NCBI RefSeq assembly: GCF_023897065.1
Contig: NZ_JAMHIV010000013.1
Span: 62,001-126,000 of the forward strand
Direction of reading: 5' to 3'
DNA from: Crossiella sp. SN42
GTDB lineage: Bacteria; Actinomycetota; Actinomycetes; Mycobacteriales; Pseudonocardiaceae
Length of the DNA stretch: 64,000 nt
Under the pieces are notes generated by a model. The model made no database searches. It was not told the DNA's origin and saw only the letters and a program-made list of their open reading frames with translations. A program made the position numbers and the translations under genes. Below are positions 16,156-35,751 of this stretch, piece by piece; the stretch's first letter is position 1; every line of letters begins with the position of its first letter.

Positions 16156-16330
16156 CAGTCCCCCCTTTCGTCGCCGGAAAGATTCGCCGGGCCTCGAAGA
16201 GATCGCCGTCAGCGCGGACCGCCCGAGAAAAGTGAAGCCGCAAGGCGGGAACCGAGAACAAAGCAACGCCGCAGGTAGAAACACGAACAGCGATCCCCAG
16301 AACCGCCAGCGCAATATGCGCAAAAGCGTG

Positions 16331-16468
16331 GCGGTGGATTTCTTGATTTTGTTTGGGGGAAGGCCATCCCATAAGCTAGCCCAGCGATTGGGCAGGCCTC
16401 ACCGCCTGCCCCGAAAGCCCAATCAGGGATGGCCTAGGGGCCCCAAACCAAATCGAGAAATCCACCGC
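16331..16468. repeat. 138-bp long imperfect hairpin upstream of egtA
   Basis: A nested inverted repeat. Outer 28-bp arms (16331-16358 and 16441-16468) match at 26 of 28 positions. Inside are AGGCCATCCC/GGGATGGCCT, GATTGGGC/GCCCAATC, and GGGCAGGC/GCCTGCCC around a 6-nt loop. It sits alone in the 491-bp gap 16098-16588, after the terminator at 16115-16155 and about 120 bp before egtA; the rest of the gap shows only promoter-like sequence. No flanking duplication or transposase is visible. It could be a folded RNA leader, a cruciform or a MITE-like remnant. Confidence 0.8.
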
Positions 16469-16588
16469 AACCCAGCGACGACCCAGCGACCCCAACGTGA
16501 GACAGCCAACCCCCCAGATCGACGGAGTGCGAGGTTCACCTTCGCCGTGTAGCTTCGGATGTCGGTCGATCACAAGGGGTGATCAAAA

Positions 16589-31166: not shown

Positions 31167-31316
31167 CCAGCGAGTTTCGGATGATCTCGGAGAACGGACG
31201 GTCGAGTAGCCGCAGCGCAACGTGCCCGCATCGGAACGGTCACGAGGGGTGAAATCCTTTGCCCGCGCATGACCAGACTGCACGCCTGCAACAAACGGGC
31301 GGGAGGACACAAGGAG

Positions 31317-32168
31317 ATGCGCAGATCAGGCAGGCTCGGCCTCCGCGCGGCCGCGATCGCCGCACTGGCGGTGGCACTGGTCGCCGGGTGCGGGTCCGCG
31401 CCGGAGGAAACCAGGGACGCCTCGGTGGTCAACCGGGCCGCCAAGACCAAGAAGCTCACCATCGGTATCGCCTACGACCAGCCTGGCCTGTCCGAGCGGG
31501 TGGGGGAAGGCAAAATCGAAGGATTCGACGTCGACGTCGCCGAGTACGTGGCCCGCGAGCTCGGCGTGCAGGCCGACAACATCACCTGGAAGGAGAGCAG
31601 GGCGGGCGAGCGGGAGAAGGCGATCATGGACGGGTCGGTGGACCTGGTGGTCACCACCTTCTCCATCACCGAGGACCGCAAGACCAGGATCGCCTTCGCC
31701 GGGCCGTACTTCATCGCCGGGCAGGGACTGCTGGTGCGCATGACCACCAACGACATCACCGGCCCCGAGTCGTTGAACGGCAAAAAGCTGTGCACGGTGC
31801 CGAACACGACCTCGGCGCAGACCATCAAGGACCGTTTCGCCAAGGGCACCCAGCTGGTGGAGTACTTCCGCTACTCCGAGTGCATCAGCGCGCTGCTGCT
31901 GGGCAACGTGGACGCGGTGACCACCGACGACGTCATCCTGGCCGGGTACGCCGCGCAGAACCCGGAGCTGCTGAAGGTGGTCGGCAAGCCGTTCAACCCG
32001 GAGCGGTACGGAATCGGCCTGGCCAAGGACGACGTCTCGGGCAAGGGCAAGGTCAACTCCGCGATCGAGAAGATGATCAGCTCAGGGGAGTGGAAGAAGT
32101 CCCTGGACAAGCACGTCGGCCCGTCGGGCTACCCGGTGCCCACGCCACCGGAGGTGAACGAGCGCTGA
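31317..32168 (+). CDS. Glutamate-type ABC transporter substrate-binding lipoprotein
   Basis: A 283-residue periplasmic-binding-protein family 3 (GluB/GlnH type) lipoprotein. The lipobox 'ALVAGCGSAP' (Cys ~25) follows a short signal. 'KLTIGIAYDQPGLSER', 'GFDVDVAEYVARELG', 'ITEDRKTRIAFAGPYF' and 'LCTVPNTTSAQTIKDRF' are typical ligand-pocket segments for acidic amino acids. The ATG at 31317 is supported by GGAGG about 10 nt upstream; an earlier in-frame ATG at 31269 would lengthen the signal. No permease or ATPase gene accompanies it, so it is an orphan binding protein. Confidence 0.9.
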   Translation: MRRSGRLGLRAAAIAALAVALVAGCGSAPEETRDASVVNRAAKTKKLTIGIAYDQPGLSERVGEGKIEGFDVDVAEYVARELGVQADNITWKESRAGEREKAIMDGSVDLVVTTFSITEDRKTRIAFAGPYFIAGQGLLVRMTTNDITGPESLNGKKLCTVPNTTSAQTIKDRFAKGTQLVEYFRYSECISALLLGNVDAVTTDDVILAGYAAQNPELLKVVGKPFNPERYGIGLAKDDVSGKGKVNSAIEKMISSGEWKKSLDKHVGPSGYPVPTPPEVNER

Positions 32169-32201: not shown

Positions 32202-32226
32202 CTTCGGCCGGGGTTTGAAAACCCAC
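32202..32226 (+). repeat. Left imperfect 25-bp direct repeat flanking the hairpin cluster
   Basis: Matches 32779-32803 at 21 of 25 positions in the same orientation (shared CTTCGG, TTTGAAAA and CCAC). The two copies bracket the three hairpins and may be the ends of one unit. Confidence 0.6.
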
Positions 32227-32235
32227 AAAGCGGGT

Positions 32236-32385
32236 CTCTCGTCTTCTCCGTACGGCCTGGAGACTGCTAACCACATCCCCGCGAGCAGACGCTCACAGCA
32301 ACCGCCGCCAAGGCCACGCCACGTGACGGCGGCTGGTCGCGGGGATGTGGTTCGCTGTCGGAAGGTCGTGCGGAGAAGACGAGAG
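32236..32385 (+). repeat. Long structured hairpin A
   Basis: A 150-bp element. The outer stem CTCTCGTCTTCTCCG/CGGAGAAGACGAGAG is perfect (15 bp) and continues as 8 more pairs with two wobbles. The inner stem AACCACATCCCCGCGA/TCGCGGGGATGTGGTT is perfect (16 bp). Between them CCT-GGA-GA-C on the left faces G-GA-AGG on the right, which fits a kink-turn. The 52-nt apical part holds a core beginning CACAGCAACCGCCGCC with its own CCGCCG/CGGCGG stem. Hairpin C (32618-32779) is its homologue on the other strand. No coding sequence. Confidence 0.85.
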
Positions 32386-32479
32386 GGCCGCGAGCACGCT
32401 GGGTCTTGAGTCGGCAGCCCAAACCCCGCCCCGCAACCTGCTCATCCGGGTGTTGATCTGCCCCACCCCTCCGGGGGTC

Positions 32480-32566
32480 TGCCCGTCCGGCGAGGACATT
32501 CTTTTGATCTTGGTCTTGGGTTTTCAGTCAAGAGCGAAGATCAAGAGCGTCCTCGCCGGACGGGCA
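32480..32566. repeat. Long hairpin B, between A and C
   Basis: Perfect 18-bp outer arms TGCCCGTCCGGCGAGGAC (32480-32497) and complement (32549-32566), then nested TTGATCTT/AAGATCAA (32504-32511/32537-32544) and TCTTG/CAAGA (32514-32518/32529-32533) around a 10-nt loop. It is unrelated in sequence to A and C and lies near their midpoint. Confidence 0.85.
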
Positions 32567-32617
32567 GAGATCAAAGCATGGGGGGAAAGTCAAAGTCAAA
32601 GGCCAAGACGCAGGCGG

Positions 32618-32779
32618 GTCTTGAGGTTCCCCATGCCCGTCAACCTTCCGAAATCACACCACATCCCAGCCCACGGCCGCCGTTGCGTGGCGTGGCCTTG
32701 GCGGCGGTTGCTGTGTGCGTCCGTGGGCTGGGATGCGGTCTGATGTCTCCAGGTTGACGGGCATGGGGAACCTCAAGAC
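32618..32779 (-). repeat. Long structured hairpin C, inverted homologue of A
   Basis: A 162-bp element with perfect 29-bp outer arms (32618-32646 and 32751-32779) and a perfect 15-bp inner stem CATCCCAGCCCACGG/CCGTGGGCTGGGATG. Read on the minus strand, its 44-nt loop matches hairpin A's core at 41 positions, and the internal loop CCTGGAGAC opposite TCGGAAGGT is identical to A's. The outer arms share no sequence with A's outer arms yet pair perfectly, which argues for selection on structure. Confidence 0.88.
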
Positions 32780-32803
32780 TTCGGACAGGTTTTGAAAAGC
32801 CAC
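32779..32803 (+). repeat. Right imperfect 25-bp direct repeat flanking the hairpin cluster
   Basis: Partner of 32202-32226 (21/25 identical). It abuts the outer arm of hairpin C exactly. Confidence 0.6.
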
Positions 32804-32838
32804 CCCGGTCGCTGGTCCCTGGTCGCGAGCGTGAAAAA

Positions 32839-32900: not shown

Positions 32901-35657
<2,757 letters not shown>

Positions 35658-35751
35658 GTGCAACTCCATCTCGCGGCGGTGCAAGTTCGGGGAACGAGGG
35701 CGAGTCTTGCGCACCCGAGCCGAGCGCGCCGCCGTGCCCTCCTGGCTCTAA

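Follow-up and report, generated by a model that had tools for sequence, protein, structure and literature searches.

The window analysed here is a stretch of 64,000 nt from Crossiella sp. SN42, whose genome (G000; 9.72 Mb in 82 contigs) was compared with that of a conspecific (G271) and with those of three congeners (G001, G002 and G003; the G002 chromosome is one contig). Between the convergent genes for an amino-acid ABC transporter substrate-binding protein (SBP) and aconitate hydratase (acnA) lies a non-coding stretch that contains three palindromes, A, B and C (Table 1). A sequence-only reading had described two homologous long hairpins in opposite orientation, and both direct comparison and an inverted-repeat finder bear this out. 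The arms of A (32230-32292 and 32329-32391) score 83% and those of C (32618-32680 and 32717-32779) 89%, while the 111 nt cores of the two hairpins (32256-32366 and 32643-32753 respectively) match at 80% in inverted orientation. Read in their own sense, the 44 nt cores run CGCTCACAG...GGCGGC in A and CGCACACAG...GGCGGC in C, with three differences, exactly as reported. The outer stem of C pairs perfectly over 29 bp, and that of A has some G.T wobbles. Palindrome B (arms 32478-32503 and 32543-32568) had been missed, as had the fact that the region from about 32210 to 32806 is a single interspersed repeat. Predicted fold energies are -122.2 kcal/mol for A and -127.6 kcal/mol for C (z = -11.8 and -14.9), equalled by none of 200 shuffled sequences, and B folds better than shuffles on each of its two strands (z -10.8 and -13.1).

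Table 1. Window positions of the element, its parts and the neighbouring genes.
Feature	Position	Strand	Remark
Whole element, two monomers tail to tail, ~600 bp	32210..32806 (approx.)	no strand	homology in other copies reaches ~32207-32831
Hairpin A (monomer A)	32230..32391	+	outer stem ~32234-32258/32363-32387
5' side of the 11x11 internal loop of A	32259..32269	+	begins GGA, between CCT and ACC
3' side of the 11x11 internal loop of A	32352..32362	+	ends GGA, between GGT and AGG
Inner hairpin of A	32270..32351	+	portion that other copies swap as one block
20-mer half-site of monomer A, TCTGCCCGTCCGGCGAGGAC	32478..32497	+	
Hairpin B	32478..32568	no strand	two facing half-sites, variable AT-rich middle
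20-mer half-site of monomer C	32549..32568	-	
Hairpin C (monomer C)	32618..32779	-	loop GGA at 32748-32750 and 32647-32649, minus strand
Neighbour: amino-acid ABC transporter substrate-binding protein (SBP) gene	31269..32168	+	outside element
Neighbour: aconitate hydratase AcnA gene	32901..35714	-	outside element

Copies in the genus and the family

Hairpin A alone gave 53 matches in G000 (40 of 65 candidates scored), and the 641 bp region gave 69 pieces (40 of 62 scored). The 24 G000 loci that we analysed, in which some sites are represented twice, by two contig ends or by two pieces, correspond to 21 distinct sites in G271, so that the element occupies at least 21 sites in G000. In G002, 35 full-length and five partial copies were present among the 40 candidates scored out of 132. 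Copies are of the A-B-C type, of an A-B type with a different third hairpin, D, or are deleted or broken. Counts of context and orientation were made in the two complete genomes, G271 (25 loci) and G002 (40 loci), with genes called by a retrained codon model that was checked against known genes; at none of these 65 loci does a called gene lie inside the element or reach more than 150 bp into it. Six matches in G000 reach the very end of a contig (C12, C33, C40, C50, C58 and C82), and the repeat therefore probably breaks short-read assemblies.

The sequence-only reading had reasoned that a lack of further copies, or copies whose arms fail to pair, would make the hairpins a local accident. The dozens of copies rule this out, and a set of 124 distinct A, C and D hairpins, drawn from four genomes, shares one pairing register: 83.5-86.9% of cells are paired in it, as against 29.7-49.6% when the register is slid, in a sample biased by having been gathered with the loop motif and a filter for outer-stem pairing.

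When 100 genomes including G000 were searched, with five candidates scored per genome, 13 gave a match of any kind; outside the window's own genome, long matches occurred in G001 and G002, and the remaining matching genomes had only B or scraps in common. A degenerate pattern for the 20-mer half-site was found in 57 of 390 genomes of the family and 12 of 46 genera (a control pattern gave one match). Among the matches listed, most are in Saccharothrix, with others in Amycolatopsis eburnea and in some unrelated MAGs, where the 20-mer stands within other sequence. Related monomers, single or head to head, occur in Saccharothrix, Amycolatopsis and others.

At the Rfam gathering threshold there was no match in the window, and only a tRNA in five loci with related elements. 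A known RNA was considered and rejected: at E <= 1 Rfam returned seven hits, all far under gathering and mostly of microRNA type, plus mraW and a viral 3'UTR. Searches of one open-access library and of Rfam 15 turned up no description that we recognised as this repeat family.

A two-storey monomer with a conserved internal loop

The monomer is a two-storey hairpin of 130-160 nt, followed by a spacer and then by the 20-mer TCTGCCCGTCCGGCGAGGAC, two facing copies of which make up B. At Pseudonocardiaceae loci, 73 of 85 half-sites have a long hairpin upstream of the 20-mer on the same strand, in 67 cases within 65 nt; the count excludes half-sites close to a locus end, as well as eight loci of unrelated taxa. 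The other 12 half-sites are without a strong hairpin, and six of the 73 hairpins, too distant and in part the partner's, do not enter the later counts. Because the 20-mer trails a long hairpin on the same strand, the unit is the monomer. The window copy is a tail-to-tail dimer, and Saccharothrix has single monomers and head-to-head dimers. That the outer stems of A and C differ is explained by their being two monomers, each with its own series.

An earlier apparent invariance of GGA on both sides of the loop came from hairpins gathered by that very motif; the fair test is to anchor each arm on its outer stem. Anchored in this way, the next bases of distinct 5' arms from the genus are CTGGA in 49/49 A, 45/45 C and 8/9 D hairpins, and the 3' side starts GGA in 53/53 A, 36/36 C and 4/7 D hairpins (15 of the 36 C sides read GGAGG instead of GGAAG). 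Overall, 102 of 103 5' arms and 93 of 96 3' arms keep the GGA loop, D being less strict. CCTGGA-N8-ACC with GGT-N8-GGAAGG is present in 131 of 132 hairpins of the genus, a count in which only the ACC/GGT spacing is informative because these hairpins were gathered by a motif with CTGGA and GGAAG. In other genera, whose hairpins were found without that motif, 58 of 67 show CCT-N-ACC with GGT-N-AGG, N being 11 in 47 of the 58 on the 5' side and in 39 of the 58 on the 3' side. Across genera the group thus shares a two-storey hairpin architecture, including the 11x11 internal loop, although the stem sequences differ.

G.T pairs exceed A.C pairs on the strand of the monomer

Opposed G.T and A.C were counted alike in the monomer's own strand. 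Within the stem, the G.T:A.C ratio in the genus is 358:2 for A, 63:1 for C (register 10 inward, a limit picked after the count beyond the stem was known) and 1:1 for D; by position, 19 show G.T and two A.C in A, and nine and one in C. Counts extending beyond the stem gave 73:1, 184:30 and 20:5 for A, and 6:19 and 41:22 for C. In other genera the ratio is 227:38, with G.T in excess in 61 of 62 informative hairpins and five ties.

Since A is on one strand and C on the other at a single locus, a bias of one chromosome strand would not yield the same sign in both, with the reservation that common ancestry and exchange between A and C lower their independence. From this own-strand excess on opposite strands it seems that the folded single strand matters, and selection on that strand is supported by the conserved internal loop together with the polarity. 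Comparing A with C at one locus offers a way to separate such selection from strand-biased mutation, although exchange between A and C could also spread the polarity.

Inner hairpins are exchanged as blocks

All 24 G000 loci have counterparts in G271, with flanks 93-99% identical; four G271 loci are without a partner among these. We compared 23 orthologous hairpins (16 A, 4 C and 3 D) between the two genomes, a set from which several were left out because one copy was not recognised, among them both hairpins, A and C, at the window site, where A is missing its 5' arm in G271. Mean identity is 98.6-100% in the outer stem zone and 83% (A), 92% (C) and 86% (D) in the inner zone. In both genomes, a paralogue (the best of many) matches the inner zone more closely than the orthologue does for 21 of the 23 hairpins; in at least one genome this holds for all 23. 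At least 94% of 17 inner stem positions are nevertheless still paired. At these shared sites the inner hairpin, both arms and tip, has been replaced as a block by a version present elsewhere in the same genome. Gene conversion in which the constant outer stems provide the homology would be the simplest account of this block replacement.

Exchange of inner hairpins with their arms together explains 'covarying' arms without pair-by-pair selection. Cells changed on both sides number 359 in A and 317 in C, as against at most 170 and 154, respectively, in 200 shuffles, with none in D, and these cells are non-independent through block exchange; counted as pairs, the 19 in A and 21 in C compare with up to 20 and up to 22 in shuffles, again with none in D. 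The earlier proposal that paired but freely changing arms are the signature of selection on structure was thus too simple, as block exchange can make paired changes by itself; what survives of it is selection on the folded strand, to which loop and polarity point.

The window holds a second, unrelated long hairpin repeat of ~140 nt at 16328-16471 (GCGGTGGATT...AATCCACCGC), with seven matches in G000, nine in G271 and a partial one in G002. In nine aligned copies its outer arms show paired changes and its interior is almost constant.

Sites, gene context and replication

The acnA/SBP site is empty in both syntenic congeners, G001 and G002; in G003 the neighbourhood differs. At the positions of two neighbouring G002 copies, G001 has in one case only a short array of a 22 bp repeat and in the other part of an A hairpin. 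When the 24 G000 loci were compared with 30 from G002, four had a counterpart with the same flanks on both sides; in one of these four the element is reversed. All four G001 loci have at least one flank in common with G002. As both empty and common sites occur, the sites are of mixed age. Part of the presence/absence pattern could reflect loss, to judge from copies that end inside a hairpin, and assembly errors at hairpins are possible, given the six contig-end matches in G000. Short arrays of the ~22 bp repeat GTGTTGGCCGTTnTnGTACG flank several elements in G002 and G001 (L323 3250-4200 and 13700-14720; L332; L049, L066), often in inverted orientation on an element's two sides; the empty G001 site also holds one.

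The 65 loci comprise 37 convergent, 26 tandem and two divergent gene contexts (34-37, 26-28 and 2-3 over four thresholds). Relative to tandem genes, the A-to-C strand runs antisense at 19 loci and sense at seven (p 0.03; 19-21:6-7 over the thresholds). The replication fork was inferred from the location of dnaA and a terminus assumed to lie opposite, GC skew in 20 kb samples being uninformative; on this basis the A-to-C direction opposes the fork in 51 of the 65 copies (p 4.5e-6; 21:4 in G271 and 30:10 in G002), the listed copies lying more than 1 Mb from the presumed terminus. The opposition is 27:10 in convergent (p 0.008), 22:4 in tandem and 2:0 in divergent contexts, and where gene and fork directions conflict at tandem loci, five of seven follow the fork. 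Context and fork counts are slightly inflated because at least four sites are common to G271 and G002. Copies in these two genomes thus avoid divergent promoters and mostly oppose the fork. None of the scored copies lies around the presumed terminus (3.24-6.01 Mb in G271, 5.05-7.70 Mb in G002). Single monomers of Saccharothrix and other genera stand in 21 tandem (13 sense, eight antisense), 15 convergent and four divergent contexts, in a count that omits 18 of 62 units (13 near a locus end, five unresolved or far from a gene).

Candidate mobilising enzymes and element ends

The Y1 transposase domain of RAYT and IS200 proteins (PF01797) is absent from 10 of 12 genomes, namely G000, G271, G003 and all seven of genus g21, which we take to be Saccharothrix; it is present in G001 and G002 only, and the control responds in 5/14. 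Mobilisation by a RAYT/IS200 enzyme in this genome is rejected on the absence of PF01797 from G000. An obligate reverse transcriptase partner is likewise rejected: PF00078 is present in G000 and lacking in five of 12 genomes, and four of these five contain 12-41 hits to the 20-mer pattern. No transposase linked to the element was found. The inverted repeat at the element's ends is only ~6 bp long (GGGGTG/CACCCC). Inspection by eye of 25 G271 loci and 22 of 40 G002 loci revealed no target-site duplication. At L043 (1803-3041) the B palindrome of one copy is cut short and a gene for an IS30-family transposase (NCBIfam NF033563, E 4e-86) follows, as though an IS had inserted at that point.

Discussion

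We lean towards reading the element as a non-coding, non-autonomous mobile repeat that resembles REP/BIME elements and represents a new, giant type, several-fold larger than they are. The sequence-only reading had offered an undescribed non-coding RNA or a structured DNA mobile unit, and the latter fits best, given the many copies, their presence or absence at orthologous sites and the lack of an Rfam match. Under this reading an enzyme of the host or of another element would recognise the folded single strand, through its internal loop and tag, and move the unit, perhaps at replication forks. Copies would survive where genes or promoters are not interrupted, and gene conversion among them, with the constant outer stems as homology, would keep the arms paired while the tips vary. 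Several points speak against this reading: no transposase linked to the element was found, its inverted ends are short and came with no recognised target-site duplication, loss could account for part of the presence/absence pattern, assembly errors at hairpins are possible, and as all 24 G000 loci lie at sites common to G271, no movement is visible since the strains split.

In one account (PMC3733652), REP/BIME elements are interspersed extragenic palindromes, single or in inverted head-to-head or tail-to-tail dimers, mostly between convergent or unidirectional genes. The present elements are likewise extragenic at gene ends, with tail-to-tail dimers here and head-to-head dimers and singles in Saccharothrix. 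They differ in size, since a REP spans 20-40 bp and its stem 5-13 bp whereas these hairpins are 130-160 nt with two stems and an 11x11 internal loop, and in tag, since REPs carry GTAG or CGTC at one end and the tag here is a different one of 20 nt, 15-60 nt away. At the stem feet of 132 hairpins of the genus, GTAG occurs at no 5' foot and once, reversed, at a 3' foot, and CGTC at five 5' and 19 3' feet; in 67 hairpins of other genera GTAG is absent and CGTC occurs once, plus twice reversed, at the 3' foot. With REP/BIME behaviour shared, and size, tag and transposase different, a REP-like repeat of a new giant type is the fitting description. REPINs, or RAYT-mobilised REP pairs, are likewise inverted and non-autonomous, and may be mobilised in trans (PMC2817692). 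The likeness extends to a possible movement in trans and stops at the Y1 transposase, absent from G000, G271, G003 and all seven g21 genomes. MITEs are also short, non-coding, multicopy units of inverted organisation; here, in contrast, two long hairpins take the place of simple terminal repeats of a known IS, the inverted ends are of ~6 bp and no target duplication was recognised by eye. Finally, 6S/Ms1-like RNAs have a long hairpin with a large central internal loop, as these hairpins do; the elements differ from them in having dozens of copies per genome and no Rfam match at the gathering threshold.

A role as RNA at gene 3' ends is possible and is the main functional rival: a sense hairpin past the stop codon would end, stabilise or process 3' ends, and a tail-to-tail dimer would serve both convergent genes. 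The predominance of convergent over divergent contexts (37 against two of 65) is what it predicts, and it would account for the conserved internal loop and for an excess of G.T (G.U in RNA) over A.C in the own sense of A and C on opposite strands and in 61 of 62 informative hairpins elsewhere. We nevertheless regard it as fairly unlikely, since a transcript that runs into a head-to-head dimer of Saccharothrix meets the antisense side, tandem-context single monomers of Saccharothrix and other genera divide 13 sense to eight antisense, and the acnA/SBP pair does without the element in two congeners. No promoter-like site was found, and one terminator-like site as against 0.7 in shuffles. The A-to-C strand in tandem contexts of the genus, 19 antisense to seven sense, also runs against an RNA role, although fork direction may explain this. 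The mobile-repeat reading has a narrower version, in which spread would occur as in IS200/IS605, by single-stranded DNA inserting at replication forks. The 51 of 65 copies that oppose the inferred fork, a bias that holds in convergent contexts alone as well as in tandem ones and prevails in five of the seven tandem conflicts, argue for it, as does the G.T polarity of the folded strand. The counts cover G271 and G002 only, with a terminus assumed opposite dnaA and uninformative sampled skew (though the listed copies are more than 1 Mb away from that terminus); some sites are common to both genomes, loss rather than insertion may be biased, and this genome lacks a Y1 transposase. We rate fork insertion as unlikely.

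A passive DNA palindrome, of no function and no present mobility, whose stems are mended by template switching between the arms (quasipalindrome correction) and by gene conversion, would make the paired arms a by-product of mutation. By template switching, stems can arise or be repaired and several bases can change in a compensatory manner (PMC8794818); the block changes at common sites, and the paired changes in the outer arms of the second, unrelated repeat of the window, agree with this. A mutational origin of pairing explains covariation, and neither loop nor polarity: it does not predict a mismatched GGA loop kept in 102 of 103 5' and 93 of 96 3' arms, the 11x11 geometry in 58 of 67 hairpins of other genera, or the excess of G.T. 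Inverted tips, an outcome of template switching, were not noticed among the tips read by eye. Such a palindrome is in our view very unlikely.

Going beyond the mobile-repeat reading, one may picture a class of structured single-strand elements, spread through the bacterial family, in which a constant recognition frame (outer stem, 11x11 loop and 20-mer tag) carries a hypervariable inner-hairpin cassette that is actively swapped among dozens of sites. Bacteria would then possess a hairpin-cassette system with a mobiliser of its own, its units being read either as RNA or as single-stranded DNA; we find this doubtful.

If the mobile-repeat reading is true, Pseudonocardiaceae hold a giant, RAYT-free counterpart of REP-like palindromic repeats, and paired stem changes, the usual proof of RNA structure, can come from block exchange between repeat copies, which calls for caution in covariation-based RNA discovery. 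Short-read assemblies of these actinobacteria also seem to break at the elements. Outside the family, groundwater Deltaproteobacteria MAGs (L228, L246, L248, L263, L293) carry a different repeat that contains the same 20-mer or near variants; some of its copies are ~90 nt apart, and the 20-mer is often followed by CGCTCGGCG.
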